Assembly: GCA_030539395.1 (NCBI GenBank)
Contig: JAUNSC010000021.1
Span: 1-58,914, forward strand
Length of the DNA stretch: 58,914 bases
Direction: 5' to 3'
DNA from: Eubacteriales bacterium
GTDB lineage: Bacteria; Bacillota; Clostridia; Lachnospirales; Lachnospiraceae
The notes under the pieces were generated by a model. It did no database searches and was not told the origin of the DNA. It saw nothing but the letters and a program-made list of their open reading frames with translations. Below, piece after piece: positions 13,866-57,822 of this stretch (position 1 is the stretch's first letter; each line of letters opens with the position of its first letter). Made by a program: the position numbers and the translations under genes.

Positions 13866-14417
13866 TCAAGCAGCCACTGTGAGCTGCAAGACACTCCTTC
13901 CCTGATTCCAGAGACGCATATATACTTCCTTGCATTTCCTGTACTTTGCAAATGTACGGATAGCCTCGCATTCATTACAATACACCTTCCAGCACCCGCA
14001 GCATTTACTGTTTCTGCCTGCATTCTCAATAAAACCTGTTACATCCCCCAACGGATAACTCAAAAACAGTCCAATCTCATGGGGAAACTCATCCCTGCAC
14101 TGCAGCCTGCTCTTTAATCGTTCCAGCGCATATGCAGGTTCGATTGATTCATAACCATATCCTTTCAGGAAATCCCTCACTCCTGGTTTCTCCAAATCAC
14201 GCTTCAGGTAATTCAGACGGCTGACATAAATCAGTGCCGTCCTGTTTCTTTTTCTCAGGATCAGAAGCGAAATTCCTTTTTCTTTTACACTCTGGTTCCA
14301 GAAATATACCTGGTTTTTTAATTCCTCTTCCGTCTCATATGCATAAGTAAAAAGATTTGCTGTTTTTATGGATGCTAATGTCGGCGAACAATGTTCTATT
14401 AAATATTTCTCCAGCAT
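13866..14417 (-). CDS. DUF3793 family protein
   Basis: 183 residues. It matches DUF3793 (PF12672), a family that is often next to flavodoxin in clostridia. It begins EKYLIEHCSPTLASIKTANLF and has conserved LRKRNRTALIYVSRL, FPHEIGLFLSYPLGDVTGF and the Cys cluster CCGCWKVYCNEC, which could bind a metal. The biochemical role is unknown. Cotranscription with flavodoxin and the operator-like sites upstream point to an iron-responsive function (inference). Confidence 0.85.
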   Translation of the reverse strand: MLEKYLIEHCSPTLASIKTANLFTYAYETEEELKNQVYFWNQSVKEKGISLLILRKRNRTALIYVSRLNYLKRDLEKPGVRDFLKGYGYESIEPAYALERLKSRLQCRDEFPHEIGLFLSYPLGDVTGFIENAGRNSKCCGCWKVYCNECEAIRTFAKYRKCKEVYMRLWNQGRSVLQLTVAA

Positions 14418-15187: not shown

Positions 15188-16357
15188 TCATCTGAAATAT
15201 GAACAAATAAAGTCAAATGCCTGCCTGTACCAGCCATTTGCCCAATCTTCCCTTTTCACAAAAATGAATCTGTCCTGTTTTTCTTCTTTCCCATAATATT
15301 CTATCGTCTGCCTTTGTATTTCCAGCAGGCAATCGGCCTCTTTGAGCGGTTCTTTGTCTGAGCAAATCAAAAGCAGACCACATTCGTATTGATTTAATAT
15401 CTCAGAAATATCATTGCTGCAAATAATGTCTTTATCATTCCAGAATACACTGTGGGAATATTCTGGCAGCAGATTACTTAATCCTACTGCATAATAATCC
15501 TTTTTCTGCAATTCCTTAAGTAAAATATATGCCTGCTCACATATCTTTTTGCCTTTATCCGTATGCAAAATACCGGATGAGATCCGAATCCAGACTATCG
15601 GCACTTCTGTCAGAAGATCTTTTTGCAGAGATAATCTCTTTTTAAACCACACATCTGAATAAAATGCATCCAAAACCTCCAAATTCCGGCGTCTCTCCAG
15701 TATTTTCAAAATCTGCTTCTCATTTACCTTCCTATCCCTGTCAAATATGCCCCCGCCGGCAAAATATCCCGTCACTGCAGCGGCCTGATAACTGTTAGAA
15801 TATCCTATATACCTTCCATATGTTTGCAGCAGGCTGTCCGGTATCTCTAAATCACAGCATATTTCCCAGGCCCCTTTTGATTTCTGTACCAACCTCTGCC
15901 CGGATTTTGAAAATCCTGCACTGGAAACAGCCCATACGCCTGGCAATGCCGCAGGCAGGGAAATTCTCCCGGAATTACTTTTCGCCGCAACCAGACAGAT
16001 ACGGTCGGCTATCTCCCATATTACTTCCTCTAAAACTGCAAAATCATGCCACTGAGTCGTTCCAAGACTCATATGCGCAACGTCTACTTCATTCTGTATG
16101 CACCAGTATAATGCGGGAATAAGGTCATAAATATTTCCTTTATGGTCCGGCTTATGAATAATTTTAATACTCCCCATGCCGAGTCCGGCATTTGCAGACT
16201 GGATAATTTCTCCCACAACCGTTCCATGTGATCCTGCCGCAGCCGGCGTTTTCCTTTCCTGTACCTTCCTATCCTTACATTCCAGATCAAACTCTAACTT
16301 TTTGACATATAAAGCAGAATCTAAACAGATTCCATCATCAATGACCGCTATCTTCAT
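15188..16357 (-). CDS. S8 subtilisin-like serine protease of the peptide cluster
   Basis: 389 residues, no signal peptide, so probably cytoplasmic. The catalytic triad is visible: Asp7 in IAVIDDGI, His44 in GSHGTVVGE and Ser189 in SNSYQAAAVTG, with the oxyanion Asn at 128 (AAKSNSGR). The Ser loop lacks the usual GTSxAxP form. The protease domain ends near residue 210; the remaining ~180 residues show no motif I recognise. The gene overlaps the preceding ABC transporter gene by 20 bases, which ties it to the peptide cluster. The likely job is leader removal or trimming of the modified Cys-rich peptide; self-protection by degrading it is the alternative. Both are inference. Confidence 0.85.
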   Translation of the reverse strand: MKIAVIDDGICLDSALYVKKLEFDLECKDRKVQERKTPAAAGSHGTVVGEIIQSANAGLGMGSIKIIHKPDHKGNIYDLIPALYWCIQNEVDVAHMSLGTTQWHDFAVLEEVIWEIADRICLVAAKSNSGRISLPAALPGVWAVSSAGFSKSGQRLVQKSKGAWEICCDLEIPDSLLQTYGRYIGYSNSYQAAAVTGYFAGGGIFDRDRKVNEKQILKILERRRNLEVLDAFYSDVWFKKRLSLQKDLLTEVPIVWIRISSGILHTDKGKKICEQAYILLKELQKKDYYAVGLSNLLPEYSHSVFWNDKDIICSNDISEILNQYECGLLLICSDKEPLKEADCLLEIQRQTIEYYGKEEKQDRFIFVKREDWANGWYRQAFDFICSYFR

Positions 16358-18176
16358 CTTCTTCCCTCATAACGTATTTATCCGCCTGATAATGAAATAA
16401 CTGCCTGTACAAATCACAGGTTTTTAATAATTCATCATGTTTACCCGATGCACAGATACGCCCATTTTCCATAACCATAATCTTATCTGCCAGAAAGACA
16501 TTGGATAAGCGGTGTGAAACAAACAATAATGACTGATCCCGACATTCCTTTTGGAGCGTCTGGAACAGTTCATATTCTCCCCGCGGATCCAGCGCAGCGG
16601 TAGGCTCATCCAAAACGAGTACAGAAGCATCCCGGTAAAACATCCTGGCAAGTGCGACTTTTTGATTCTGTCCTCCCGATAGTTCCACCCCTTTATCGCT
16701 GTATGCTCTTGTCAAACAGGTATCTTCTCCCTGGGGAAAGATTTGTACCAGCTTATCCGCTCCAGCCATGCGCATTGCACGCTCCTGTCTTGCTTTTGCG
16801 TCTTCATCCGGCTTCCCTATCTGCGAAATCCTGATATTCTCCCGCAATGTAAAAGCAAAATTTGATGCATTTTGAAAAAAACAACTGAACTGGCTTCTAA
16901 GGCTTTCCACATTATACTCCTGCATCGGCAGGCCGTTAATTAAAATCTCGCCTTTGTCAGGTTCATAAAAATGAAGCAGAAGTTTCAGTATCGTTGATTT
17001 TCCCGCACCATTTTCCCCTACGATACACAGCTTCTTTCCAGCCGGCAAACGAAAACTCACATTTTTCAGAACATATTTCTCCGTGCCCGGGTAACAAAAG
17101 CTGACATCTTGAAACTCAATATCGACCGGCTTACTTAATATTCTATTTCCTGATCTGAGTTTTTTGCAGACAAACTTTCTGAAATCACTGAAATGATCAA
17201 TTTTCAGCTTTTTCTCATAGAGCGCCATAAATGCTGATACAACAATCTGTAATCCGCCTGCCATTTGGGCCAGCATCCCGCTGTAAAGCGTAAAATCACC
17301 AATTGTATTTTCCCCCGCCAGCACAGACATCCCTACATGGGCCAATGCTGCTGTCGACAAAAATTCCGGAAGAATAGACAATAGCAGATTCCAGGCAAGC
17401 CGTTTTTTTGCAACGGAACGCTTTTGAAAAAAGTAATCACGCCACAGACTCTGATACTTATTGATGAGATATTTTCCTATGTTATACAGGCGTACTTCCT
17501 GTGCATAAGCACGTTCTGTGGCAGTCCTGTAGAAATACTGCATCTGCCGTTCTTCTCTGACATGATCCAGCCCCCAAAGATAAACTTTCTTTGTAAAACT
17601 GTATTCCGAAACAGCTTCCGGCACATAAAGAATCAATATCACAACCGTATAAAGCGGTGCGATCCCCGTCAGGAAAAAGACACAGCTGCAGACAGAGATG
17701 CCATAACTGATAATGGATATTCCGTCATATACTGCTCCAAGTATGGAATATATATCCCGCTTTACTGCTTCGAATGCGTCATAATATGCGGGATTATCAA
17801 AATACTCCAGTTCCATCTCTACAGCAGTCCGGGCCATTTCACATTCAATATACCGCATTAGCAGATCCTGCTGCATTGCGCTGGCGTAAGTTTCAATCTG
17901 TACGGACAGGAGCCGCAAAAGATACAGGCATAATAGAAAAAACATATACATAAAAAACACACCTGAAGGTCCGGAAACCTGGTCCTCGTTTCCGAATAAG
18001 TCCAGGATTTTCTTTGTGTTCCACGCCGTCGCTACAGGAATCAGCGCCGTTATAATTCTGGAGGACAGTTGAAGACATGTATATGTTTTTGAAGCCAGCC
18101 ACGATAGTGTCATGCAATATTTGAAACTGTTCCATACCTGTCTCAATTTGTGTTTATCCGATATTTCTTTTGTCAT
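16338..18176 (-). CDS. ABC transporter, permease fused to ATPase (peptide exporter type)
   Basis: 612 residues. About six membrane helices occupy residues 20-320, followed by an ATPase domain with Walker A GENGAGKST, Q-loop CFFQNASNFAF, signature LSGGQNQKVALARMFY, Walker B VLVLDEPTAALD and the switch His in FVSHRLSN. There is no N-terminal C39 peptidase, so leader cleavage must be done by another enzyme; the neighbouring subtilase is the natural candidate. The gene lies 196 bases after the precursor gene, with a long-range inverted repeat between them. Probable role: export of the matured Cys-rich peptide. Confidence 0.88.
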   Translation of the reverse strand: MTKEISDKHKLRQVWNSFKYCMTLSWLASKTYTCLQLSSRIITALIPVATAWNTKKILDLFGNEDQVSGPSGVFFMYMFFLLCLYLLRLLSVQIETYASAMQQDLLMRYIECEMARTAVEMELEYFDNPAYYDAFEAVKRDIYSILGAVYDGISIISYGISVCSCVFFLTGIAPLYTVVILILYVPEAVSEYSFTKKVYLWGLDHVREERQMQYFYRTATERAYAQEVRLYNIGKYLINKYQSLWRDYFFQKRSVAKKRLAWNLLLSILPEFLSTAALAHVGMSVLAGENTIGDFTLYSGMLAQMAGGLQIVVSAFMALYEKKLKIDHFSDFRKFVCKKLRSGNRILSKPVDIEFQDVSFCYPGTEKYVLKNVSFRLPAGKKLCIVGENGAGKSTILKLLLHFYEPDKGEILINGLPMQEYNVESLRSQFSCFFQNASNFAFTLRENIRISQIGKPDEDAKARQERAMRMAGADKLVQIFPQGEDTCLTRAYSDKGVELSGGQNQKVALARMFYRDASVLVLDEPTAALDPRGEYELFQTLQKECRDQSLLFVSHRLSNVFLADKIMVMENGRICASGKHDELLKTCDLYRQLFHYQADKYVMREEDEDSGH

Positions 18177-18273
18177 ACAAACCTCTCAGACATCGGGCTT
18201 TGTCATTTTGCCCATAACCCGCCTTTCAATTGTTATATTAAGGCAGCTCCTGTATAAATCCTTATAAATTGGG

Positions 18274-18334
18274 CAGGCTTCCCGCCTTTGGTACATATCT
18301 CTGGTACAGCTATGCACAAAAACCAGGAAGCCTG
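18274..18334 (-). other. Long-range inverted repeat between precursor and exporter genes
   Basis: Perfect 9-bp arms CAGGCTTCC (18274-18282) and GGAAGCCTG (18326-18334) around a 43-base loop that can itself fold. No T-run follows on the minus strand, so it is not a simple terminator. A structure here could stabilise or process the precursor mRNA and keep exporter and protease expression lower; this is inference. Confidence 0.45.
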
Positions 18335-18372
18335 TGTAAGACTTTGAGGCAAACAGCCATACAGGCTATTTA

Positions 18373-18555
18373 TCAATAAGTCAGGCTGGCATTTATAGAA
18401 GCAATATTCCTGCCACTTGCAGAGTCACTTACGCGTACGAAATCTCTTGGAGAACTTGCGCAGCTACAACTGCCTGCCACACATTCGCAAGTGCAGGCAT
18501 ACAATTCCATTGTACTCTGTCTTAAATTTGACTGCTTCTTCAATGTCTTTTTCAT
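18373..18555 (-). CDS. Cys-rich RiPP precursor, CLI_3235 (TIGR04065)-like
   Basis: 60 residues with a strong AAAGGAGG ribosome binding site. A basic leader of about 18 residues (MKKTLKKQSNLRQSTMEL) precedes the core YACTCECVAGSCSCASS, with Cys at 21, 23, 25, 30 and 32 (CxCxCx4CxC). A Cys-free, Ser/Asn-rich tail runs to residue 60. The MKK...ME.YAC.C start and Cys pattern match what I know of CLI_3235-class bacteriocin precursors, whose maturase is CcpM. It is followed on the plus-coordinate side by the acyl-carrier-related gene 21 bases away. The product and modification are unknown; thioether or other Cys crosslinks would fit a radical SAM/SPASM enzyme. Confidence 0.85.
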   Translation of the reverse strand: MKKTLKKQSNLRQSTMELYACTCECVAGSCSCASSPRDFVRVSDSASGRNIASINASLTY

Positions 18556-18576
18556 ATTACGTTTCCTCCTTTCTCA

Positions 18577-18837
18577 CTATTTTACCAATTGAAGCAGATG
18601 CTCCAAAATATGGTTATATGTATCAAATGTCCCGCTGGTTATTACATTAGCCGGAACCTGAATCTGAAATGCTTCTTCTATTTTGAACAGCGCCGCTAAC
18701 AGTTCACGTGCATTCATTTTTACCCTGCCACCAAATAATTTTGCATCTCTTAATCCAGTTTCCGATTGAAAATCAATTCCTGTCATTTCCCAAAAAATCT
18801 CTGCCGCCTGATGATCTGCTTTTTCATACGTCCACAT
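18577..18837 (-). CDS. Peptide maturation system acyl carrier-related protein (TIGR04067-like)
   Basis: 86 residues, with GGAGG seven bases before the ATG. The second half, ARELLAALFKIEEAFQIQVP, resembles the helix II/III region of acyl carrier proteins. The sequence before it, LFGGRVKMNA, stands where the phosphopantetheine DSL motif would be expected, and no obvious DSL is present. The protein fits the small acyl-carrier-related member of the CLI_3235/CcpM gene set by size and position directly before the precursor. Whether it is ever modified is doubtful. A partner or scaffold role for the precursor is the simplest guess. Confidence 0.7.
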   Translation of the reverse strand: MWTYEKADHQAAEIFWEMTGIDFQSETGLRDAKLFGGRVKMNARELLAALFKIEEAFQIQVPANVITSGTFDTYNHILEHLLQLVK

Positions 18838-18858
18838 ACCAATACCTCCATCGCCATG

Positions 18859-19920
18859 TTAAGACAGGACATCCCGAATGAGAATCGCAGCCTTTTTTGC
18901 AGAGTCCTTATCCTGCATATTATAAATATTTCTGGGCTCATAAAAGTCTTTTTTTCTGTCTATATATTTTCTGTCTATAGATACAAGATGCCGCTTTCGC
19001 TTTTCAAAAAAATCCTGTGTGTCGGGCACAGCCGCAGCAATATGGCAGCATACGGTATGAAATCCCAGCCTGTGCGTCACATCTGATTTAATATCATCAT
19101 ATTCTCCGGAAAACTGGGGATTGTAGGCCATGCACATAACCGCGGCATCACAGGAGACGGCAAAAGAAATCTCATAGGCCAGTATGCCAAAATTATTATC
19201 ATCGATCTCATTAAACGGGAAAACTCCGCCCGGAATTCCCACTATGATTAAATCAGGGCGCTCCCTGCATTCTACCGCTTTTATAAAATGATTATATTTT
19301 ATTATCTTCTCTGATTCACTGTACCTGTTGCTGAACATAAAACCGGGAATAGAATACATCCCCAGCAGATCACTGTCCAGTCTGGAAGCGACAGAAGCGA
19401 CTTTGTATCCCATATCCATAAACTGCCTGCGAAGTGCTATTTGGACCGCCAGTTTATCTACGCCTGTTTCCAAGCCGTACACTGCCAAAACAGGTGTGTT
19501 TATTCTATGTATACAATATGGCCCGCTGCTTCGGACCTCCAGAGTCTGTCTGACCGGCGTAATGTTCTGCCCGTGAGGTATCATTTGAACGCTTTTATCA
19601 AAGGATATTGCATCATTATATCTTGTAAAAATTATTTTTTTACCCTTTGCAATTGCCTCTGACAGCCGCTCTTTCAATAGCGTTTCCGGTAAAGCATCTT
19701 TTTCATCATCCACAAACCATACCGCTGTACACTCCTCCAGAGCCCTGGAAAAATCGCTTAAAACAGTAAGATATTTTTCTCCGCATGCTATTTCCCCGCC
19801 TTCCAATCCCCATCCCTTCGGACTGACTAAAGCGGTAATCCTATTATTTCCTATTAAATCAGAGTTTAAAACATAAGGCTCATATGCCCTGCAATAGGGA
19901 TAAATCATTATTTCTTCCAA
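18859..19920 (-). CDS. Peptide maturation system protein, TIGR04066-like
   Basis: 353 residues. It starts at TTG (19920), eight bases after GGGAGG; an ATG four codons in (19908) is the alternative. The N terminus MIYPYCRAYEPYVLNSDLIG and the middle AVYGLETGVDKLAVQIALRR followed by RPDLIIVGIPGGVFPFNE recall the P-loop-less, nucleotide-binding-like fold of the TIGR04066 proteins found only beside CcpM maturases. No catalytic motif is evident. It lies 21 bases after the radical SAM gene and 21 before the acyl-carrier-related gene, so it belongs to the operon. Function unknown. Confidence 0.72.
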   Translation of the reverse strand: MEEIMIYPYCRAYEPYVLNSDLIGNNRITALVSPKGWGLEGGEIACGEKYLTVLSDFSRALEECTAVWFVDDEKDALPETLLKERLSEAIAKGKKIIFTRYNDAISFDKSVQMIPHGQNITPVRQTLEVRSSGPYCIHRINTPVLAVYGLETGVDKLAVQIALRRQFMDMGYKVASVASRLDSDLLGMYSIPGFMFSNRYSESEKIIKYNHFIKAVECRERPDLIIVGIPGGVFPFNEIDDNNFGILAYEISFAVSCDAAVMCMAYNPQFSGEYDDIKSDVTHRLGFHTVCCHIAAAVPDTQDFFEKRKRHLVSIDRKYIDRKKDFYEPRNIYNMQDKDSAKKAAILIRDVLS

Positions 19921-19941
19921 AATTATTGCCTCCCGGTTCCG

Positions 19942-21366
19942 TTAATCTAACTCATAATCGTAGCCTAATTCCCGCAATACAAGATAATCCTTCAGATTTT
20001 CTTCCGCGTTATACCGGCTGCTTCCACAGGCCTCTAATATTTTTTGTTCTGATATATTTTTCCCGTCATCCGCCTGAGCAACACAGATGCTGCAGAACAT
20101 ATAAGCCCAGCAATTCCTGCACCTGCCGGATGTCACCTTTTCAATATTAAGTATTTTCAGCGCCTTTTCCAAATCTATTCCCGTATCAATATGTCCCATA
20201 TATGCTGCCCGTGAACTTTCGCTTACCCTTTCGCACGGATACAGTTTTCCTTCAGCGGTAACAAAAAGTTTTCTGACTCCCGGCAGGCACGGACCTCCCC
20301 GATGGGATTTTTCAGGAACCTCGCTGCGGTTTACTCTCTCCAGCGCCGAACCGATTCTTTTAAATTCCCTAAAATGATTGCGCATAACCGGAGATATATC
20401 TTTTTCTTCTAAACGCCCCAGTTTCCATAACAATACTTTAAATTTTTCATATTCATATTCCAGAATAAAATTCCCAGCCGTTCTCATTTGTGTTTTTGCA
20501 TTTACAGGATTCACCAGAGTAGATGAAAATTCGGAATCTCTGACAATGTGATTTGATAACGTAAAATTCACCACTTCATTTAACGGATTCTCCGAATCAA
20601 GCACCGTATTAAAGCTGATATTTTTTTGAAAATAATCCGGATACTGTTTTTTCAGATTACTCAAATTTTTAAACAGCGTGTCAAAAGAACCTTTTTCTGA
20701 ATTCGCAAATTTACGGTGTCTGTTGTGGAAATTTTCCGGCCCGTCAAGACTTATAAGCAATGAAAAATCATTCCTGACCAGAAACTCATATTTTTCCTCC
20801 GTCAATAGGGTTCCGTTTGTAGTAAAGCTATAGCTGATCCGCTTTCCCTCTCCCGCATGTTTTGCATATTCAACACACTCTTTTATTAAATCAAAGGCAA
20901 GCAGCGGCTCTCCGCCATAAAAACTGATTGCCAGGGAAGTAACATCCCTTGAATGCATGACTGCATAATCAATTGCTTTTTTGGCAGTTTCCAATGACAT
21001 CTTTTTATTCGCATGCCCCCGGTTCTCGTAATTGCCCGAATATACGCAATATTCACACCGCAAATTACATTGCTGTGTGACCTGCAAAGTAATCTGTCCC
21101 AGATTGTGATTTATAAGGGACTCATAATATTCTGTCACCGGATTTTGTGAAACCTGAACGTGTTTATCCTTTAAATACCCCTTTTCTTTTAACCCATCTA
21201 TGCAGGCAGCTATTTGTGCTTTATTCTCCGCCCCTGCTTCACCATTTAAATAATGGTATACTTCTCCCGGGATTTCTAAAATCTCATTGCAATTCACATC
21301 ATAAATATAGTATCCCAATGGAGTTTTCAGCAGATGTATAAACGGTTTTTTTATTATCTCTTCCAT
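19942..21366 (-). CDS. ccpM: Radical SAM/SPASM Cys-rich peptide maturase (CcpM-like)
   Basis: 474 residues. Residues 1-70 form an RRE/PqqD-like region (TPLGYYIYDVNCNEILEI). The radical SAM cluster motif CxxxCxxC is at Cys100, Cys104, Cys107 (QQCNLRCEYCVYSG), followed by SFYGGEPLL. The C-terminal SPASM domain binds auxiliary Fe-S clusters through GPCLPG, LYPCERV and CRNCWAYMFCSIC. Such enzymes make thioether or carbon crosslinks in RiPP precursors. Its ribosome binding site (GGAAGGGTGAGG) is formed by the last codons and stop of the upstream FtsX permease gene, so the two are translationally coupled. Naming follows CcpM (TIGR04068); an HMM search would settle it. Confidence 0.85.
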   Translation of the reverse strand: MEEIIKKPFIHLLKTPLGYYIYDVNCNEILEIPGEVYHYLNGEAGAENKAQIAACIDGLKEKGYLKDKHVQVSQNPVTEYYESLINHNLGQITLQVTQQCNLRCEYCVYSGNYENRGHANKKMSLETAKKAIDYAVMHSRDVTSLAISFYGGEPLLAFDLIKECVEYAKHAGEGKRISYSFTTNGTLLTEEKYEFLVRNDFSLLISLDGPENFHNRHRKFANSEKGSFDTLFKNLSNLKKQYPDYFQKNISFNTVLDSENPLNEVVNFTLSNHIVRDSEFSSTLVNPVNAKTQMRTAGNFILEYEYEKFKVLLWKLGRLEEKDISPVMRNHFREFKRIGSALERVNRSEVPEKSHRGGPCLPGVRKLFVTAEGKLYPCERVSESSRAAYMGHIDTGIDLEKALKILNIEKVTSGRCRNCWAYMFCSICVAQADDGKNISEQKILEACGSSRYNAEENLKDYLVLRELGYDYELD

Positions 21367-21370
21367 GCCC

Positions 21371-23248
21371 TCACCCTTCCTTACGTTCAGAAAAAAGCTT
21401 CATGGGTTCATACTGCAGGCTCCTGTTCATTTTACGGGATGATATCCAGTAACCAAACAGGATTGCCAAAGCGGCGCAGCATACCCCTGTCAGCACAGAC
21501 ACGCTTACGGGATAACTCTCAGTCACCTCGTTCTCCAGTGTGACATCCTGCATCACACTGTAGGAGCGGTCATAGTAATTGCGGTCCAGACTCTTTGCAG
21601 AAATGTTCCGTGAGAGAAAGCTTCCGCTTATGGAACCCGCAATGCTTCCCAGAATTATCAGAATCATCAGTCCGGACAGAAGCGACCTCCTGCACTGCTT
21701 TTTCGTCATTCCCAGAGACCGTTCAATGGCTGTCCGCTCCTTCTGCTTTGTGATAAACAGGTTCGTAAAGAACAGGATCAATATAGCGGTCACGATCACT
21801 CCCACCGAAAGTACCATCAGGGACAGGTTTCTCATATTCCGAAGTCCGGCCTGCAGCTCTGTATATCCCATATCATAAAACGTAAACTCCAGTTCCGAAA
21901 TCCCCTGCTGATTCCATCTGGTCAAAAAGGTATCAATAGTTCCGTTTGGAATCTCAAAGGAAGTGTTCATATCCCTCATGGCGCCAAAAGCAACAATATT
22001 GCATTCGTCCCGATGCTCGATTGAGTTCACGGGCACCACCAGTTCCCCCTGCCCCATTGTCTGATTCGCCAAACTCGGCGTATCCACCACATCATAAATA
22101 CCAACCACCGTGTATTCACTCGCTTCAAAGGGTTCCAGCGTGCGGTTATCCGTCCCGGTAAGACTGAAATTACCACCACCGCCATAACGATTAAAATTCA
22201 CATATCCTGCCCGGTCAGCATTCGTATAATAAAGGCGCACCGTGATGGCATCTCCCAGCCCCAACTGATTATCCTGCATAAAATCCAGGGGTGCAAGACA
22301 TACCTTTTCCCCCGCCTGGTATTCCTCCTCACTGATGTCTCTTCCCTGGCAGATACGGGCAGTCCCATCATAGAAGGGAAGAATCAGCTTTGTCTTCTTT
22401 GTCCCTGTGACCGGCTGAGAATTTCTCATGTATCCCGGTTTATCTGCCACGGATAACATTCTTTTCCCGATTTCTGTCTCGTAAAAGTCCTCCGACACCT
22501 CAAAATACGTTTTTTCCACCTGAAGGGGGTCCGGTACCGCCGTCCCGTCCTGCTGATATAAAGTAAGCGAAATATCGTTTCCGGAATATTCATACGGAGA
22601 CTCCCCCGTATCACTTTTTGATTCCACCACAGCTCCATGGGGCCTCGCTGTGCTCATCCCCGCCGGGCCTATATATGCAACATAAGTTTTGTCCTTATAC
22701 ATCTTCTCCGGATCCGGATTTTCATGGTCACAGAACCACAGCTTCTGCCCTTCGTGAAAGAAACTGACTCCCTCTCCCAGTACCTTTCTGACCTCAATCT
22801 GTACGGCTTCCTCAGGCACACAATCCTCCAGAGGGGAAAACTCTATCACGCCGGTCGATCCCGGATTTGTGCCTGCTGCGCTCTCAGAAGGATGCACATA
22901 TTCCGGAGTATACGAACCGTAATAGGAGCGTTTTTCCGGCCCGGAAAGATAGTCCGCCCCCTCAAAGAGCAGTTCCGACACCGGTATATAACGGTCATAT
23001 TCTGACCGGTTCCATATCACATATTCTTTTCTTTCAGCGTCCCAGACAAGATTTCTGGAAATGGAAGAAGCCTTTTGTTTTACGGTAGCAATTGTCATGA
23101 ACTTATTTTCATAAGAGGCCATGGACTTCTTATTTACAAGCCACAGATTTGCCCCGAATGCCGTCAGAAATGCCGCAAGAACCAGCAAAATCAAAAACAG
23201 GATGGTCCGTACCGGCGTCCTCAGCATCTGCTTTAAACTGTTTTTCAT
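21371..23248 (-). CDS. FtsX/MacB-type ABC transporter permease
   Basis: 625 residues. One N-terminal membrane helix (residues about 12-34) is followed by a large extracytoplasmic domain (40-460). Three C-terminal helices form the FtsX core, with LSLMVLSVGVIVTAILILFF, the KQKERTAIERSLGMTKKQ coupling segment and a last helix near 590-610. MacB-like permeases move peptides or transmit mechanical force rather than importing solutes. The start overlaps the ATPase gene by four bases and the end is coupled to the maturase gene. It probably works with the ATPase and the permease at 24.1-25.3 kb in export of, or immunity to, the peptide (inference). Confidence 0.85.
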   Translation of the reverse strand: MKNSLKQMLRTPVRTILFLILLVLAAFLTAFGANLWLVNKKSMASYENKFMTIATVKQKASSISRNLVWDAERKEYVIWNRSEYDRYIPVSELLFEGADYLSGPEKRSYYGSYTPEYVHPSESAAGTNPGSTGVIEFSPLEDCVPEEAVQIEVRKVLGEGVSFFHEGQKLWFCDHENPDPEKMYKDKTYVAYIGPAGMSTARPHGAVVESKSDTGESPYEYSGNDISLTLYQQDGTAVPDPLQVEKTYFEVSEDFYETEIGKRMLSVADKPGYMRNSQPVTGTKKTKLILPFYDGTARICQGRDISEEEYQAGEKVCLAPLDFMQDNQLGLGDAITVRLYYTNADRAGYVNFNRYGGGGNFSLTGTDNRTLEPFEASEYTVVGIYDVVDTPSLANQTMGQGELVVPVNSIEHRDECNIVAFGAMRDMNTSFEIPNGTIDTFLTRWNQQGISELEFTFYDMGYTELQAGLRNMRNLSLMVLSVGVIVTAILILFFTNLFITKQKERTAIERSLGMTKKQCRRSLLSGLMILIILGSIAGSISGSFLSRNISAKSLDRNYYDRSYSVMQDVTLENEVTESYPVSVSVLTGVCCAALAILFGYWISSRKMNRSLQYEPMKLFSERKEG

Positions 23249-23925
23249 CTGCTCTCCTCCCCTGATAATACGCCGTCCGACATCCAGAAGACTACGTCAC
23301 TTTCTTTGGAAACATTTTCATTATGCGTCACAACAATCACCGCATAACCGTCTTCATGGGCCATTTTTTTCAGCAGCTTCACGATCACTTCTTCATTATG
23401 ACTGTCCAGATTTCCGGTAGGCTCATCTGCCAGGAGAATCTTTCCGCCGCATGCCATGGCACGGGCAATTGCCACCCTCTGCTGTTCGCCGCCGCTTAAC
23501 ATGCCCGGATATCTGGAACCCATCTCTTCTGAGATTCCCACTTTTGCAAGGAATTCCTTTGCCCGCTCTTTCGTCTGCTTTGCATCCATATGCTTTAACT
23601 GCATCGGCAGCATGACATTCTCTTTCACAGTCAGAAGCGGAAAAAGATGGAAAGCCTGATAAACAATGGCCGCCTGCTCCATCCGGTACCGGTCACGGTC
23701 AATGGTACGCATCTCCCTGCCTTCTATGTACAGATTTCCCTTCTCAGGTATGTCCAGCCCTGCCAGCAGTGAAAGAAAGGTACTTTTTCCGCTGCCGGAT
23801 TTTCCCATGATCGCATACATTTTTCCCGCTTCAAACGAGCAGGTAACATCCTTAAGCGCCTGTGTCTTCTGATATTTTGTCTGATAAACATAACTGACAT
23901 GCTGTGCCTCGATCATCTTTGTCAT
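23245..23925 (-). CDS. ABC transporter ATPase of the MacB/LolD type
   Basis: 226 residues from the ATG at 23923-23925, which has GGAAGGAGAAGG just upstream; the open frame continues up into a repeat element, but that extension is not coding. Walker A is GKSGSGKST, signature [14 protein letters not shown], Walker [13 protein letters not shown], and the switch His is in VVTHNE. It energises the flanking FtsX permeases. It overlaps the downstream permease by four bases. Confidence 0.92.
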   Translation of the reverse strand: MTKMIEAQHVSYVYQTKYQKTQALKDVTCSFEAGKMYAIMGKSGSGKSTFLSLLAGLDIPEKGNLYIEGREMRTIDRDRYRMEQAAIVYQAFHLFPLLTVKENVMLPMQLKHMDAKQTKERAKEFLAKVGISEEMGSRYPGMLSGGEQQRVAIARAMACGGKILLADEPTGNLDSHNEEVIVKLLKKMAHEDGYAVIVVTHNENVSKESDVVFWMSDGVLSGEESR

Positions 23926-24006
23926 ATCCTTCTCCTTCCTCATTTCCCACAGGGTTGTGAGCGCATTGCGCAAAGCGGTCTCTAAACCAGTTTTGACACC
24001 TGAATC

Positions 24007-24104
24007 AATTGATGTTGGGGTCAAAAGTATTTGACCCCATGATGCCTTCGGATTTTTCATGCAAGCATGAAAATCATGACCTTTTGACCCTGGTATCATC
24101 AATT
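24007..24104 (-). repeat. 98-bp repeat element with imperfect terminal inverted repeats
   Basis: The ends are AATTGATG (24007) and CATCAATT (to 24104), with GGGTCAAAAG-type arms just inside both. Inside are a perfect hairpin GGGGTCAAAAGTATTTGACC(CC) at 24017-24038 and a 20-bp near-palindrome TTTTCATGCAAGCATGAAAA at 24054-24073. It lies between two genes of one operon and resembles a MITE or REP-like dispersed element. Its left-hand strand reads through as an open frame containing MIPGSKGHDFHA. A degenerate relative is at 39.34 kb. The TGA in its end is the stop codon of the permease that precedes it. Confidence 0.65.
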
Positions 24105-25310
24105 TTGCATGAATAAAAGCTGCATTGCATTTCTTCTTCCCATCCTCCAGAGAGCTGCCGCACATCCAATCAGATAACTGACAAGAACGACCCCATTTAC
24201 CGTAAGCGCCACAGACAGGTTCCCTGCAAAAAGGAGAGCTGCCAGGCTGCCAGCCGCATTTCCCGCCAGCGCCAGGAAAAACTGCTCTGTCCAGAACATA
24301 CGGACCACTTCATGTGTATGCTGACCGATTGCCCTGAAAAGAGCAAATTCCCACTGCCTGCTGCTGCACAGCAGATAGCTTACCACATATCCGATAATCA
24401 GAACGACCGCACAGATAATGGGGAAAAAGGCATTTAATATATCAATAGATTGTCTCAGATGATTTGCAAAGGAAACGAACATCTCATCATCCACAGACAA
24501 TGCATTTCCGGTATAAGAGAACATGGAATCCGCTGACTGCTCCGCCATGCCTGCGGCCTTCATCTCCTCTTTGAATGCATCCAGATTCAGAGGGTCCGCC
24601 ACATAAAAGGAAGCAGAATTGGCTGTAAAAGGAACCTGCTTTCTGGATAAAATGTCTCTTACCGTCCCCAGAGGCAGGAGCATATCCGGATATATGCCGG
24701 CTGTTGCGGCAAACATCTCATCCATCGTTCCGATAATCTTAAATTCCTCTACGCCCATCATTTCGGACCGGATCTCATGGGTTGTATAAATATACCGGAT
24801 CAGATTCAGCGGAACCACATCTCCAATCTCCCACTCATTTTCCTTCATGGCAGATTCATCTACGATACAGACTCTTTCATCCGTACCAAAAAACTCTTTC
24901 TGTTCTTCTTCACTTAAACTTATATTATCTGCTTCCATACCCGGAACAGCCTCCACCCGGTTCACCCCCACCGGGAAATAAATTGTATGCGCCTTCCACT
25001 CCTCCATGGGAAAATCCTCTATGCCCGCCGCCAGCCAGTGGGAAAGAGACAGCTCTTTTACATAGACAGAGTTCTGCAGGACATCCACAATCTCCGCCGG
25101 AATGGCTATGTCATTATCGCTGCTGCCGCTGGCATCCGTCACCCTGCAAAATACCGGTATATTCTTTGAAAGGTCTTCAAGCTGCTGCCGGTAACTGCGG
25201 ATATTTTCAAAGTACAGATTTAAAAGGAGGACTAAAAAAATACTCACCCCCACAGTAACCATGCCTCTTCTCTTTTTTCTTTTCATGTTGCAAAGGATAT
25301 AGTGTAACAT
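24099..25310 (-). CDS. FtsX-type ABC transporter permease, C terminus set by a repeat
   Basis: 403 residues from the ATG at 25308-25310, seven bases after AGGAGG; a TTG nine codons upstream lacks a ribosome binding site. Helix 1 is at residues about 16-36 (GMVTVGVSIFLVLLLNLYF). An extracytoplasmic domain follows, then three helices from about 300 on, with the SRQWEFALFRAIGQHTHEV coupling segment. The last residues, AMQLLFMQN, run into the repeat element, whose TGA ends the protein. A few C-terminal residues may therefore have been lost or replaced. First gene of the block that continues into the ATPase, second permease and maturase. Confidence 0.82.
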   Translation of the reverse strand: MLHYILCNMKRKKRRGMVTVGVSIFLVLLLNLYFENIRSYRQQLEDLSKNIPVFCRVTDASGSSDNDIAIPAEIVDVLQNSVYVKELSLSHWLAAGIEDFPMEEWKAHTIYFPVGVNRVEAVPGMEADNISLSEEEQKEFFGTDERVCIVDESAMKENEWEIGDVVPLNLIRYIYTTHEIRSEMMGVEEFKIIGTMDEMFAATAGIYPDMLLPLGTVRDILSRKQVPFTANSASFYVADPLNLDAFKEEMKAAGMAEQSADSMFSYTGNALSVDDEMFVSFANHLRQSIDILNAFFPIICAVVLIIGYVVSYLLCSSRQWEFALFRAIGQHTHEVVRMFWTEQFFLALAGNAAGSLAALLFAGNLSVALTVNGVVLVSYLIGCAAALWRMGRRNAMQLLFMQN

Positions 25311-25599
25311 CCATTCCCCTCCTTGTTTTAACTGCAAAAATGTTCAGAAAAGTATAATGTCCGGTTCAGCAATTGTGTCCGATTAAGTAAATCCAAATTA
25401 AGTAAATCAGTTAATTTTATAAATTAATTTCTTTGATTGATTTTACCATAGATACTTATACTTTTCAACAATTTTTTGTGCAATCGGCTAATTTAAAATT
25501 CACATATTCCATTCAAAATACACATATCCATGAGACTGGACAAATTGGCTCAAATCTTTTATAGTTAAATCATTAATTCAACCAGAAAGGACCACAACC
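25311..25599. promoter_or_regulatory. Divergent AT-rich intergenic region
   Basis: AT-rich leader between the leftward peptide-cluster operon and the rightward ABC-class ATPase gene. A minus-strand TATACT lies at 25351-25356, about 40 bases above the permease ATG, without a good -35. Direct repeats TGTCCG (25359 and 25376, 17-bp period) and AAGTAAATC (two copies near 25385-25408) are visible. They could be regulator sites, but nothing proves it. No gene is seen here. Confidence 0.4.
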
Positions 25600-27333
25600 A
25601 TGAAATCATCCAGAGAACTTCAGGAGCTGCTGCGCAGTCTCAACCGCAAAAGCTATCCTGCATATAAAGCCCTTCGGGGCAGTTATCAGTTTAACGGCTA
25701 TGTATTATCCATTGACCACGTACAGGGTGATCCCTTTGCCTCGCCCTCTCACGTCAGCATCTGTGTTTTGCAAAAAGATGCAGCATTTCCCTCTTTTTGC
25801 ATGGAAAACAGACTGACTCGGGAAACTCTTGCCGATCATCTCAACCGTCAGTTTGAACAGCAGGTAACTCATTTCACCTTCCGGGCAAAGGGTTCCGGAA
25901 AAAGCGGCCTGATTTCCGTCAGCCACTGCGGTCAGGAAATCCTTTGCCGCACCGCCTGTGAAGTTACCGAAAAGGAAATCACAGCCCGCTTCTTTATTGG
26001 TTTTCCTGCCAACGGCCGGACCATCAATGCCCCTGAGCTTGAAAAAATCCTCTTTGAATTTCTTCCGGTCTGTGTCCAAAAAGCCTTTTATTACAAAAAT
26101 CTCAACGCAAAAGCGCTGGAACAGGCAATCTTTCTGGCAGAAGATCAGGATTATATCCGCCGCTATCTGAAAGATCATGATCTTGCCGCTTTTGTCGCGG
26201 ACGGATCTGTACTCCCAAGACAGAGCGGTGTCTCCTCAAAGCCCATGAGAGAAGCCGTTCCCTTTTCCTCGCCGGAAAGTCTGCGTATTTCCCTGGATCT
26301 GCCCCACAAAGGCCGCATCTGCGGCATGGCTGTCAAAACAGGCATCACTTTGATTGTGGGCGGCGGGTATCACGGAAAATCCACGCTTTTAAGTGCTCTT
26401 GAGCTGGGTGTATATAACCACATTGCGGGAGACGGAAGAGAGTATGTCATTACAGATGAAAGTGCCTTAAAACTCCGCTCGGAGGACGGTCGTTTTATTA
26501 AAGATGTGGATATTTCTCTTTTTATTAATGACCTGCCCAACAAAAAAGATACCCGCAGCTTTTGCACGGAAGATGCCAGCGGAAGCACTTCCCAGGCTGC
26601 AGGTATCATAGAGGGCATGGAAGCCAAAAGCCGCGTTTTTCTTCTGGATGAAGATACTTCGGCTACTAATTTTATGGTTCGGGATGCATTTATGCAGGAA
26701 GTGATCCGCCAGAATAAAGAACCGATCACTCCCTTCCTTGACCGCGCCCGTGATCTGTATAAAAAAGCAGGCATCTCCACCATACTGGTTGCCGGAAGCT
26801 CCGGAGCTTTTTTCCACATTGCAGATACCATTATCCAGATGGATAATTATCATCCGGTTGACATTACTGCAGAGACAAAATCACTGTGCAGAAAGTATCC
26901 GCTCTCTGATGCGGTTCCCGCCGCTTTTTGCATGCCGGCAGCCCACCGGATTATGACTAAATCCGCTTTGGGAGCACCCACTCGCAGAGATTACCATAGC
27001 GGACGCCCTGTTGCCGGAGAGCCGGAACGCCTTAAGGTAAAGGTTCACGGAAAAAGCGGTTTTGCCCTTGGAAAACAGGACGTGGATCTGCATTACGTGG
27101 AACAGCTCATTGATACGGAACAGACGGCTGCTCTGGGACTCATTTTAAAATATGCCGTGGAGCATCTGATTGACGGAAAACGCACGCTTTCCGAAATTGT
27201 GGATTATATTTCCGGACAATTGCACCAAAAGGGACTTTCCTTTTTCTCTGAAGGAGGACATATCCCGGGAGGATATGCCATCCCACGAACGCAGGAAATT
27301 TATTCCTGTTTTAACCGCTACCGCCGGATGTAA
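25600..27333 (+). CDS. Predicted ATPase of the ABC class (PF09818/COG3044)
   Basis: 577 residues with a good AGAAAGGACC ribosome binding site. An N-terminal specific domain (YKALRGSYQFNGYVLSIDHV) precedes an ABC-type ATPase. Its parts are the P-loop LIVGGGYHGKSTLLSALELG at about residues 250-269, the SGSTSQAAGIIEG segment in the signature position, the Walker B RVFLLDEDTSATNFM and a VAGSSGAF switch region. The family is soluble and single-chain, found widely in bacteria, with no established function. The gene stands alone, divergent from the peptide cluster and convergent with the sugar symporter. Confidence 0.9.
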   Translation: MKSSRELQELLRSLNRKSYPAYKALRGSYQFNGYVLSIDHVQGDPFASPSHVSICVLQKDAAFPSFCMENRLTRETLADHLNRQFEQQVTHFTFRAKGSGKSGLISVSHCGQEILCRTACEVTEKEITARFFIGFPANGRTINAPELEKILFEFLPVCVQKAFYYKNLNAKALEQAIFLAEDQDYIRRYLKDHDLAAFVADGSVLPRQSGVSSKPMREAVPFSSPESLRISLDLPHKGRICGMAVKTGITLIVGGGYHGKSTLLSALELGVYNHIAGDGREYVITDESALKLRSEDGRFIKDVDISLFINDLPNKKDTRSFCTEDASGSTSQAAGIIEGMEAKSRVFLLDEDTSATNFMVRDAFMQEVIRQNKEPITPFLDRARDLYKKAGISTILVAGSSGAFFHIADTIIQMDNYHPVDITAETKSLCRKYPLSDAVPAAFCMPAAHRIMTKSALGAPTRRDYHSGRPVAGEPERLKVKVHGKSGFALGKQDVDLHYVEQLIDTEQTAALGLILKYAVEHLIDGKRTLSEIVDYISGQLHQKGLSFFSEGGHIPGGYAIPRTQEIYSCFNRYRRM

Positions 27334-31270: not shown

Positions 31271-34200
31271 TTATATCTCTTCCTCTGTCATATCTTTCTT
31301 ACGGTTCAGTATATCATAAATACACGGCACTACAAACAGCGTCAGCAGCGTACCATAGACCAGACCGCCAACCGTTACGATTGCCATTGGCTGCACCATA
31401 TCGGCGCCCATACCCATACCGACTGCCATGGGAAGCAGGCCAAGGATTGTGGTAAGCGCTGTCATGATTACCGGACGAAGCCTTGTTCTTCCGGCTTCCA
31501 CAAGAGCTGCCTTCTTTTCCATACCCTCCCGGCGCAGCTGGTTCGTATAGTCAACCAGAACAATACCATTGTTTACAATGATACCCGAAAGCATTACAAA
31601 ACCAATCAGAGCGATTACGCTGACCGGACTGTCTGTCAGATACAGTCCGATGAATCCTCCGGTGAAAGCCAGTGGGATCGTAAACATTACGATAAACGGG
31701 GAGAGCAGCGACTGGAACTGGGCAACCATGATCAGATACATAAACGCCACTGCCAGAAGGAGCATCTTCAATACCTCTCCCATAGCCTCATTGATTGTCT
31801 CATCCTCACCTGCCATCTCCAGACTGTATCCCTTTGGAACTTCATAATCTTTTAACGCGTCTTCCACATCTGAAGATACCAGACCAATGTTATGGTCACT
31901 GTCAATTTCCGCTGTTACTGTCACATATCTCGTCTGGGCTTCACGGTTGATGGAAGAAAATCCTTCCGTATTCTGGAATTCCACCAGTTCGGCAATGGGA
32001 ACTTCCACATCCTTGCTTTCCTCATCCTTTCCGGTGATTGTAAGCTTCTTTATTTTATCCCTTGTCAGGGTTTCGTCCGTATCGCTTACCACCAGCACCG
32101 GATAATCTTTTGACAATGTGGAAAGCGTTGTTGCCGTGCTGGCATCCGCAAGCTTTTGCTGCAGGAACTGGTATACCTGAGCAGTGGTGAGCTGATAGCT
32201 CATTGCCTTATCCTTATCCACCACAAGACGCATCTCAAGAGTCTTCTCTTCGATTCCGTCAGATATATTCTGTGTTCCCTCTACACCAGACAGGATTTCT
32301 GCCACTTCACTCGCCATCTCTTTCAATTTGTCAAGTTCACGTCCTTTAATTTTGATGGAAATTCCCGTTCCGCCAAGGGCTGACATATCCATTGTGGAAG
32401 TTTCCACATTCAGATCACATCCCAGGTCTTCTGTTTTTGTCAGAATCTCTTTTACCAGCTCATCGTTTGTAATTGTCTTTTCTTCTGAAAGCAAAACATA
32501 TATGGAAACCTGCTCTGCAGACGCTTCCTGGTTCCCACCCATCAGGCTGGCCATCGTATTGCCTGCCGCCATGGCGCCCACATCTGTTACATCCTGGATT
32601 GCCATAATCCGTTCCATCACCTTATCAGACATTTCTCCTGTCTCTGCAAGTGTGCTTCCCTCCGGCATATTCAAGGTAACCGATACCTGGGTGCTCTCCA
32701 TTTCCGGCATAAATGCGGTTCCCTTTGATACAGCCAGTTTTGCTGATACCACAAGAAGTCCTACCGCCAACAGAAGAACCAGAAATTTGATTTTCAATGA
32801 CCAGCCAAGAAGCTTTGCATATGCATTCTGGATGGCATTAAAAATCCGCGCTTTTTTCTCCCTGGAATTTTTCAGCAGTCCCGCCCCCATCATGGGAACA
32901 AGCGTTAAGGCGATAACCAGACTGGCCAGCAGGGAATACGCAATAGTAAGACCCATATCCACAAAAAGCTGCCTTGTAATTCCTTCTGTAAACACAATCG
33001 GAGCAAATACACAGATAGTAGTCAGTGTAGACGCTGCTATCGCACCCGATACCTGTTTTGCACCTTCTACTGCAGCTTTTTTGGAAGATACTCCCTCGCC
33101 CCGCATCCGGTAGATATTTTCAATTACGACAATAGAGTTATCCACCAGCATACCGATTCCAAGAGCAAGACCCGAAAGAGAAATAATATTCAGGGTAATT
33201 CCGCTGAAATACATCAGCACGATTGCCGTCATAATGCTGATCGGGATGGAACACGCAATAACAAATGTGGAGCCGATGCTCTTCAGGAACAGCAGAAGCA
33301 CAATGATTGCCAGCCCTGCACCTGAGAGCATGTTCTGGATTACAGAATCCACCACAAGGTCAATATAAATTCCCTGATCCATCAGACTGACAATATGGAT
33401 ATTTCCGTTGATTTCTTCCAGCTCTGCAAATTTTTTCTTGATTTTATCTGATACTTCTCCCGTGGAATAACCCGACTGCTTCTGCATGGAAAATACAACG
33501 CCCGGGTTTCCATTTATCTTCGCATATACCTTATCGCTGTTATCCAGAATCACTACATCTGCCACATCAGAGAGACGCACAGGTTCCAGATCATCCATAT
33601 GCATATCCAAAATCACAAGGTCTTCGATTCCCTTTGTGTCTTCCAGCTTATTTCCCACACGTACCAGGAAATCAATCCCATCTTCTGTGACGTAGCCTGC
33701 CGGCATACTGAAATTCTGTGCTGCAAGAATTCCTTTTATCATATCAGCAGTGATAATTTTCGTTACATCAGCCTGTTCCATAGCGGCATCTTTCTGTTTC
33801 TCAATTTCCTCCAGTGCCGCATCAATCTCTTTCTGTCCGGAATTTAATTCCACCTTGCCGACTGCCATCTCGATGGTTGTTGTAATTTTGGCTTTGTTCA
33901 GTTCACCCACAGCTGCAGAAACCGTGCTCTGCCCGCTGGAAATCTTTTCCTTTGCCCCATCAAGCTGCGCTTTGGCAGTTTCAAGCTGAGTTCTCTGAGC
34001 AGCCAGTTCTGTTCTGCCTTTGTTTATACCTTCCAGCCCCGCTTCCAGTGTTGCCATCTGCCCGGAGGAAGCCTCAATCGCCTGATCAAGCTGGGTGATA
34101 TTTCCCTGGAGCTGCACCCGCTGGGCAACCAGATTCCCTTTTGCCGTATCAATACTGTTTATTAATGCCTGACCTGTTTTCGACAGATCCACACCCAGAT

Positions 34201-54699: not shown

Positions 54700-55207
54700 A
54701 AACACCAGCCTCCTTTAACTTTTTTCCCAGAAGTTCCTTTCCCTTCGCCAATCTGGAACGAAGGGTGGACGGATTGATTTTCATCCATCTGCCAAGTTCT
54801 TCAATCGTATATTCTTCATAATAGTGAAAATAAATAAGTACACGGTATTTTTCAGGGAGTTCCAGAAGCGCTGAAAGAAAAAGCTTCTTCTCCTCCCTCT
54901 CTCTGATTTCTTCCTCCGAGGTCTGATTCTTTAGAATCTCATCCAATTCACACATATCCGTACGCCTGCGTCTCCACCAGTGATGCAGCTCATTTCTGCA
55001 CAAATTACTGGCCACCACCCGCAGCCACGCGTCCAGGTGATGCTCATCGGTAAAATCTGTCATCCGCTTTTGCATCAGTTTCATAAAAGTCTCCTGAACC
55101 ATATCCAGAGCCTCTTCCCTGTTTTTCATATATATCAGACAAACCCGGTAAACGCTGTCAAAATTTCTATCGTAAATTTCCCGGATTTTCTCTTCTTCCC
55201 AAACCAT
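54689..55207 (-). CDS. ECF-type RNA polymerase sigma factor
   Basis: 172 residues. Region 2 is MVQETFMKLMQKRM-like (AYLDMVQETF type), with DAWLRVVASNLCRNELHHWWRRR, and region 4 is LLELPEKYRVLIYFHYYEEYTIEELGRWMKINPSTLRSRLAKGK, a helix-turn-helix for -35 recognition. First gene of the operon sigma, anti-sigma, permease, permease, ATPase. It probably activates its own operon and is held at the membrane by the anti-sigma product. Confidence 0.92.
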   Translation of the reverse strand: MVWEEEKIREIYDRNFDSVYRVCLIYMKNREEALDMVQETFMKLMQKRMTDFTDEHHLDAWLRVVASNLCRNELHHWWRRRRTDMCELDEILKNQTSEEEIREREEKKLFLSALLELPEKYRVLIYFHYYEEYTIEELGRWMKINPSTLRSRLAKGKELLGKKLKEAGVYEG

Positions 55208-55244
55208 CTCTTTATCCTCCGGATGCCATTTCCCGCCGGTACGC

Positions 55245-55256
55245 CAATGTACATTG
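55245..55256. promoter_or_regulatory. 12-bp palindrome before the ECF sigma gene
   Basis: CAATGTACATTG, a perfect palindrome, centred about 43 bases upstream of the sigma ATG. It may be a dimeric regulator site; nothing else supports it. Confidence 0.3.
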
Positions 55257-55330
55257 ACACTTCAGGGCATTGTGATGGAGTTGATACAATACAGATGCAA
55301 GACCATCTGCAGCGCAGCAGCCCCATCACG

Positions 55331-55368
55331 AAAAAAGCAGTAGACAGGAAATTGATTTCCTATCTACT
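55331..55368 (-). terminator. Terminator-like hairpin in the leader of the sigma operon
   Basis: A 14-bp stem (arms 55339-55352 and 55355-55368, one G-T type mismatch) followed on the minus strand by GCTTTTTT. It is 190 bases past the stop of the membrane-protein gene at 55560, so it either ends that transcript or acts as an attenuator in front of the sigma gene. Otherwise the 352-base gap 55208-55559 shows only AT-rich sequence without a gene. Confidence 0.75.
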
Positions 55369-55559
55369 ACTATAACAATTGATACCGGAAGTTTGTCCAA
55401 TTTTTTTATTGAATGCAGAGGATTTTCTCTAATCTATATATTTTTTGCTCACCTATTCACGCAGCCATATTCCCTCATTAATTAATTGGATGGACTCTAT
55501 TTTTTCAATTCTTCTATAATAGAAACATACTGTTTCCAAGTAAATTCATTCTCATGTTA

Positions 55560-56339: not shown

Positions 56340-56390
56340 ATTTCTCCTTTTATATTCTACAAGTAAATTGATTTATCTCACACATTGTAT

Positions 56391-57648: not shown

Positions 57649-57678
57649 AAAAAAGAGCCTTATTTTAAAGGCTCTTTT
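57649..57678 (-). terminator. Terminator of the tRNA-Thr gene
   Basis: Perfect 10-bp stem (AAAAGAGCCT 57651-57660 with AGGCTCTTTT 57669-57678) and a T-run of six on the minus strand. It starts three bases past the tRNA 3' end. Confidence 0.85.
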
Positions 57679-57680
57679 CA

Positions 57681-57753: not shown

Positions 57754-57793
57754 ATCTTGTGTTTTTTGCTTGTTCTATCCTCAAGCCTTAGTT

Positions 57794-57822
57794 ATATTAT
57801 CACGAGTTATCTCTTTTGTCAA
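57794..57822 (-). promoter_or_regulatory. Promoter of the tRNA-Thr gene
   Basis: Minus-strand TTGACA at 57817-57822 and TAATAT at 57794-57799 with 17 bases between, about 40 bases upstream of the mature tRNA 5' end. Confidence 0.85.

Follow-up and report, generated by a model that had tools for sequence, protein, structure and literature searches.

A set of nine genes on the minus strand of a bacterial DNA stretch of 58,914 nucleotides (contig JAUNSC010000021.1 of assembly GCA_030539395.1, Lachnospiraceae, a gut-associated family; the whole stretch is called the window here) was analysed. On balance, it is rather probable that these genes make and export a CLI_3235-type peptide with thioether cross-links in a nested hairpin, that two helper proteins act in its maturation, that a transporter trio provides immunity and that the product is antibacterial. 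The genes occupy positions 25337 to 15188 and, judging from the spacing, would share one transcript as a single operon. The gene set at 15188–21366 is certainly real. It is complete by gene content and belongs to a known, though poorly understood, class of bacteriocin-type peptides. The gene set type was known before; the new findings are the scaling between cysteines and tail in the precursors, the predicted fold of the TIGR04066 protein, its domain on the subtilase together with a gene fusion, and the missing serine of the TIGR04069 protein. The scaling gives a testable topology for the whole family. The fold, the shared protease domain and the fusion provide a concrete hypothesis for the two helper genes and argue against a published suggestion that one of them confers immunity. 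No assignment of TIGR04066 to DUF1611, no mention of its domain on the protease and no such scaling was found in the literature searched, which left most subscription papers out of reach.

The six genes of the preliminary description of this region were all located as open reading frames (ORFs) at the positions in Table 1. Every frame is open, the catalytic motifs are intact and the spacing is tight. The ABC exporter had been described as lacking a peptidase domain, and Pfam gave no C39 domain on it at E up to 1. The upper end of the set, placed at 21366, had to be moved: after 4 nt, three more genes (21371–25337) continue on the same strand, and this transporter trio adjoining ccpM was absent from the earlier gene set. 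The class assignment to CcpM/CLI_3235 was based on family knowledge, with TIGR04065 to TIGR04068 as the models to search. The maturase and the TIGR04066 protein score above their cut-offs of 500 and 200, and the class is further supported by a held-out precursor model and by conserved neighbourhoods. On the other hand, the precursor reached 14.3 bits (E 0.035) against TIGR04065, under the cut-off of 26. The acyl-carrier-related protein belongs to a model outside that range, TIGR04069, in its usual position after TIGR04066, and falls slightly under the cut-off of 70. CcpM has a CxxxCxxC motif and seven C-terminal SPASM-type Cys residues; C100, C104, C107, C360, C378, C416, C419, C425, C428 and C447 are invariant in all 19 aligned sequences. 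The Pfam SPASM score is 15.6, below 21.5. A PqqD-type RRE gave no Pfam match on CcpM at E up to 1, and the TIGR04068 model covers the N-terminus from residue 9. When TIGR04065 was applied to seven other CcpM-linked precursors, four passed (27.1 to 43.1 bits), those of loci L045 and L101 scored 16.8 and 10.2, and that of L049 gave no match. The held-out model was trained on 91 precursors without the window sequence, with a small leak in that its members were chosen while this sequence was still in the pool. The precursor ORF was the best of the 664 ORFs of the window (E 1.8e-9; next E 0.2), which is more than chance. Elsewhere in the genome, a second radical SAM protein (G000:C62:13300-14355) was seen with 142 bits to TIGR04068, below the cut-off.

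Neighbourhoods were compared in 78 loci from a named-genome scan (the best 80 of 568 confirmed matches, thus a sample of the closest) together with further regions, which gave 105 CcpM ORFs, 94 of them distinct and 87 scoring at least 400. Counts were made among loci with enough flanking sequence. The comparison of gene order revealed a conserved surrounding of CcpM. TIGR04066 lies within 150 nt downstream of ccpM, or is fused to it, in 82 of 83 loci; in the sole miss, L037, a stop interrupts ccpM and TIGR04066 stands about 1.6 kb further on. A TIGR04069-like gene was found within 3 kb in 65 of 66 loci, and in 63 of 66 a precursor lies no more than 4.5 kb away. Within 8 kb, the subtilase is present in 34 of 51 loci, the exporter likewise in 34 and both in 31. 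Two or three CcpM-TIGR04066 units with different precursors occur within about 25 kb in L046, L064/L065, L073, L084, L035, L036 and L027-L028. At E 1e-100 or better, CcpM was detected in 16 of 397 genomes of the family including the own one, with 13 over the cut-off, and within the genus only in the own genome of eight. Among the matches listed, CcpM loci were seen in Lachnospiraceae, Paenibacillus and records labelled with several other phyla. The gene set is an accessory, patchy trait. No clean insertion site was found in four congeners holding both flanking genes, the ATPase gene at 25600–27333 and a DUF3793 gene at 13866–14417; these lie on different contigs in three of the congeners and about 318 kb apart in one.

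The precursor of the window has a Cys segment at residues 21–32 with five Cys and then a Cys-free tail of 28 residues, so that its leader would be approximately residues 1–20. In related precursors, the leader has a Lys-rich start and then a TVEAYA-like motif (loose form in 53/79). The core Cys residues stand in the first part, most commonly spaced by two residues (217 of 343 gaps), and Ser, Asn, Thr, Ala, Gly and Tyr are abundant in the tails. Once near-copies were removed and the window precursor left out, 76 precursors remained, in which the length of the Cys-free tail rises with the number of clustered Cys (rho 0.80) and with the length of the Cys segment (rho 0.84). By the slope, each additional Cys goes with 4.0 more tail residues. 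After correction with the CcpM tree, r was 0.78 (67 independent contrasts); none of 20000 sign permutations reached this value, and r was still 0.64 without the five strongest contrasts. Leader length runs weakly in the opposite direction (rho –0.33; contrasts –0.22), and therefore the scaling is not general growth. As a control, ORFs of these loci that have Cys clusters but are not precursors gave rho 0.04 (n = 66). The five Cys and 28-residue tail of the window precursor are the median of 21 five-Cys precursors. Type I sactipeptides form nested hairpins (PMC8172795). In such a hairpin, the tail has to run back alongside the Cys strand, so the scaling is predicted, whereas short-range links do not require it. 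With moderate confidence, the peptide is thus predicted to adopt a nested hairpin topology with N-terminal donors and C-terminal acceptors.

The TIGR04066 protein is predicted to have the DUF1611/DgcN fold with an eroded P-loop. In a structure comparison, its predicted model has, over the whole chain, the fold of the DUF1611/DgcN proteins 2obn, 2g0t and 7xrj. Profile similarity to DUF1611 extends over 249 columns; the DUF1611 profile was made from five sequences, two with N-terminal extensions cut off. The P-loop Lys is kept in 60 of 84 sequences and the preceding Gly in 6 of 84. Pfam PF07755 did not match the protein of the window at E up to 1, and the sequence search against solved structures gave nothing significant (best E 0.35). 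At E 1e-20, DUF1611 was found in none of 146 genomes of the order; it is present in 2 of 15 CcpM-bearing genomes and 4 of 198 of one phylum, with one genome common to both. The C-terminal domain of the subtilase was shown by hhalign to be homologous to TIGR04066 (97.5%, E 7.9e-12, 143 columns), and the value was the same without the window sequence (97.5%). Fifty shuffles gave up to 0.5% and six other comparisons up to 1.2%. When the subtilase model was compared with known structures, the matches listed all fell on the protease domain, residues 1–233. An iterated subtilase profile drew in TIGR04066 proteins, and subtilases were therefore counted by the N-terminal domain only. A further connection appears in locus L097 (L097:9995-12175), where a 726-aa open frame holds CcpM (11–469) and then most of TIGR04066 (441–721) with its N-terminal part missing. 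Considering the shared domain, this fusion and the near-constant adjacency of the genes, the TIGR04066 protein may cooperate in maturation, and we tentatively assign it to maturation rather than immunity.

The second helper, TIGR04069, is a pseudo acyl-carrier protein (pseudo-ACP) and probably acts as a binding module, as judged from its sequence. The phosphopantetheine Ser is present in six of 81 TIGR04069-like proteins and missing in 75 (among them Pro 33, Ala 27), and the protein of the window has Ala there. To locate this column, seven ACP-like proteins of these loci that carry the serine were picked by eye; they were set aside from the count.

The trio upstream of ccpM is probably a self-immunity transporter, for which it is a candidate of the FtsX/LolD type. 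Its genes overlap one another and the last ends 4 nt before ccpM. The LolD-like ATPase is under the LolD equivalog cut-off of 307.75, and its listed ORF start may lie upstream of the true start. All three proteins have counterparts next to CcpM in L045 and L049, in other gene orders; among the matches listed, these two loci have the CcpM proteins closest to that of the window (56% and 48% identity). Relatives of the 412-aa permease scored 262 bits in L049 and 207 in L045, and those of the 625-aa permease 481 in L045 and 397 in L049. For the thurincin H cluster, too, an ABC transporter of three components is mentioned (PMC8172795).

The preliminary description had regarded the product as the strongest candidate for an undescribed natural product of a poorly characterised class. 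Roseburia is a member of Lachnospiraceae, the family of the window. In 2015, five accessory gene types identical to those of the window were reported in a sactipeptide-like cluster of Roseburia intestinalis L1-82, in which no precursor or immunity gene was recognised (PMC4573289; statements on this and the other reports refer to the parts of them available here). In 2023, the bacteriocin SacP23, encoded by a cluster of Paenibacillus polymyxa #23, was obtained by expression in B. subtilis and shown to inhibit several Gram-positive bacteria (PMC10731318). Therefore, the novelty is lowered by a gene set already known and a member already active, and the cross-links and exact mature peptide are the part that still holds, as the SacP23 authors themselves left both open (PMC10731318). 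SacP23 is the one isolated product of the CcpM family in the literature searched. Its observed mass is 3404 against 4455 predicted and its N-terminus was blocked to Edman degradation (PMC10731318). Like the window, its cluster has TIGR04068, TIGR04066, TIGR04069, a subtilase, an ABC exporter and a CLI_3235-family precursor, which in SacP23 is 61 aa long, but its listed genes further include one for an ECF sigma factor and one of unknown function (PMC10731318). The window differs in having five Cys rather than seven (L130 sequence), another gene order and the trio. The L130 precursor, from the genus of L058, agrees with published values for SacP23 in length, core mass (4455.8) and isoelectric point (7.73), which ties SacP23 to the family by sequence. 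A fit of L130 sub-fragments to m/z 3404, in which up to seven losses of 2 H and an optional acetyl group were allowed, gave 11 matches within 1 Da and was not used because it does not discriminate; fragment 20–51, which starts at the first Cys (two losses), was set aside for the same reason. A fit on the L058 precursor was dropped, since it is a near relative and not SacP23. The locus with the closest CcpM among the matches listed, L045 (Lachnospiraceae bacterium, metagenome-assembled genome JAAUZW010000019.1), has all nine gene types including the trio. It differs in gene order, and its LolD-like gene is split over two ORFs in the assembly. In the QHNDH system, qhpD, qhpE and qhpF encode a radical SAM thioether maker, a cytoplasmic subtilisin-like protease cutting the leader and an efflux ABC transporter, the roles proposed here for the window proteins; its substrate, however, is a subunit of an enzyme, linked from Cys to Asp/Glu, and the qhp genes named in the available part of the report include neither TIGR04066 nor TIGR04069 (PMC7876137). 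The scores of the window against QhpD (168.0 bits, cut-off 453) and QhpE (77.9, cut-off 165) are both below the cut-offs.

From these results, we propose the following pathway. CcpM would bind the leader and, as a radical SAM enzyme, join the sulphurs of the five Cys of the N-terminal CxCxC...CxC strand to residues of the Cys-free tail. The product would be a nested hairpin resembling type I sactipeptides. TIGR04066 and the serine-less TIGR04069 may form a maturation or handover complex common to CcpM and the protease, which the protease would join by means of the TIGR04066-like domain at its C-terminus. Removal of the leader in the cytoplasm would fall to the subtilase, and the ABC protein without peptidase domain would then export the peptide; cytoplasmic cutting followed by export is the logic of QhpD/QhpE/QhpF (PMC7876137). 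The trio would give self-immunity. By analogy with SacP23, the peptide would probably inhibit Gram-positive neighbours.

It is scarcely conceivable that the six genes are a degraded or accidental collection. The precursor and TIGR04069 scores under the cut-offs would suit such a collection, but the open frames, intact motifs, tight spacing and first rank of the precursor ORF speak against it. The chemistry deserves more weight, and several observations here and in the next paragraph count against the reading favoured above. CcpM matches the maturases of sactipeptides (RumMC, lachnocin) and those of ranthipeptides (PapB, SCIFF) alike, each time with a score below the cut-off. The cross-link is predicted from sequence, and alpha and non-alpha thioethers are both possible. 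The scaling tells that the two segments co-vary in length, not which residues pair, and the leader correlation means that other length trends exist. PapB and SCIFF ranthipeptides have an Asp, Glu or Thr acceptor at a fixed offset near Cys. If the product were a ranthipeptide, CcpM would link each Cys over a short range, by a thioether to a nearby beta or gamma carbon, and the tail would be a follower or be trimmed. The resemblance of CcpM to PapB (207 bits), the SCIFF maturase (147) and QhpD (168), all below cut-off, is consistent with this, as is the SacP23 mass about 1 kDa under the predicted core, which implies that part of the peptide is lost (PMC10731318). We nevertheless consider it unlikely. 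When residues at given offsets after Cys were ranked by enrichment in 79 precursors, the top 15 contained Pro, Gly, Ser, Ala and, at one offset, Trp, but neither Asp nor Glu nor Thr, a result still compatible with other acceptor kinds. Moreover, a dispensable tail is not expected to track Cys number at the tree-corrected strength found.

The assignment of the helpers and the trio was weighed in the same way. The 12 short-tailed subtilases, the kind found in the window, match TIGR04066 less strongly (82.5%, E 9.9e-6), and the C-terminal domain had no direct DUF1611 match (2.4%). The fusion occurs in one genome, its TIGR04066 part reaches 140 bits against a cut-off of 200, and an assembly error is possible. 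Within 8 kb, the subtilase was not found in 17 of 51 loci, nor was the exporter in 17 of 51. The SacP23 authors proposed TIGR04066 as the immunity protein, and the B. subtilis base strain, though sensitive to purified SacP23, survived with the SacP23 cluster, among whose eight listed genes there is no trio (PMC10731318). If TIGR04066 served immunity as proposed, the trio would be an unrelated transport system. The trio is indeed rare: a loose test (any FtsX-like and any LolD-like match within 9 kb) found it in 8 of 87 loci, leaving most CcpM loci without it, and both permeases are clearly alike only in L045 and L049. This explanation is quite improbable in view of the constant position of TIGR04066 directly downstream of or fused with ccpM, its recurrence as a domain on the leader peptidase and its predicted DUF1611 fold. 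The SacP23 homologue is listed without a transmembrane helix (PMC10731318), and the window shares the trio with the two loci of closest CcpM among the matches listed. It is also unlikely that the product is a signalling or metal-binding Cys peptide instead of an antibacterial one. Activity was found for one member only in the literature searched, and a survey calls the antimicrobial activity of TIGR03973-type ranthipeptides not well characterised (PMC13289728). Against this stand the inhibition of several Gram-positive bacteria by SacP23 (PMC10731318), the three-gene immunity candidate accompanying the set and the patchy distribution, which is as expected of bacteriocins.

A more specific role of the helpers may also be considered. 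TIGR04066, as a derivative of the DgcN-type N-acetyltransferase fold, and the serine-less TIGR04069 could be a dedicated acylation or handover machine that takes over the cross-linked peptide from CcpM, binds to the matching C-terminal domain of the protease and caps the freshly cut N-terminus. We regard this as an outside chance. It fits the blocked N-terminus of SacP23 (PMC10731318) and the AMP-binding and true ACP genes beside CcpM in some relatives, and, if true, would define a new subclass of N-capped nested-hairpin thioether peptides. In six loci, a serine-bearing ACP gene was seen just upstream of the CcpM or CcpM-like gene, with a PP-binding match in both tested loci (L087, L118). It is flanked by genes of about 440–490 and 410–440 aa; the L119 contig begins at the ACP. 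In L087, L118 and L122, the three loci tested for it, the first of these genes encodes an AMP-binding enzyme, while the second matches AMP-binding above the cut-off in L122, weakly in L087 and L118, and not in L109. L118, L119 and L122 are without TIGR04066. These loci are possibly an acylated variant of the system.

Table 1. Genes of the putative operon in the window, and serine-bearing ACP loci of relatives
Feature	Position	Strand	Remarks
Subtilase, 389 aa	15188-16357	minus	protease domain 1-233; C-terminal domain ~253-389 homologous to TIGR04066
ABC exporter, 612 aa	16338-18176	minus	C39 peptidase domain not detected
Precursor peptide, 60 aa, 5 Cys	18373-18555	minus	held-out model 33.3 bits; Cys/tail features
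TIGR04069-type protein, pseudo-ACP, 86 aa	18577-18837	minus	TIGR04069 63.4 bits, E 2e-17
TIGR04066 protein, 353 aa as listed from TTG	18859-19920	minus	TIGR04066 266.5 bits
CcpM radical SAM/SPASM maturase, 474 aa	19942-21366	minus	TIGR04068 590.6 bits
FtsX-like permease, 625 aa	21371-23248	minus	Pfam FtsX C-terminal 43.5 bits
LolD/MacB-type ABC ATPase	23245-24165	minus	LolD model 201.7 bits; ABC_tran match
FtsX/MacB-like permease, 412 aa, TTG start	24099-25337	minus	first gene of the putative operon; Pfam FtsX 31.2 bits, cut-off 25.5
Serine-bearing ACP loci	L087:6876-9865, L109:7053-10004, L071:6976-10008, L118:7136-9981, L122:1431-4285, L119:233-1748		

The promoter scan of the window (23 sites against 22.7 expected) and the terminator scan (12 against 8.4 expected, standard deviation 2.8) were given no weight. 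Directly upstream of the operon, a divergent gene at 25600–27333 encodes a PF09818 'ABC class' ATPase, a relative of which was found in 9 of the 20 genomes searched, the own genome counted. The RND (AcrB-type) transporter at 31271–35758 has 1495 aa and carries a long Gln-, Glu- and Pro-rich insert; the insert contains a 33-bp tandem repeat (34450–34558) and has a higher G+C content. The segment at 55001–58000 is A+T-rich (G+C 0.31–0.34 per kb), unlike the rest of the window, and contains a tRNA gene (57681–57753), the single tRNA found in the window with Rfam at gathering scores.

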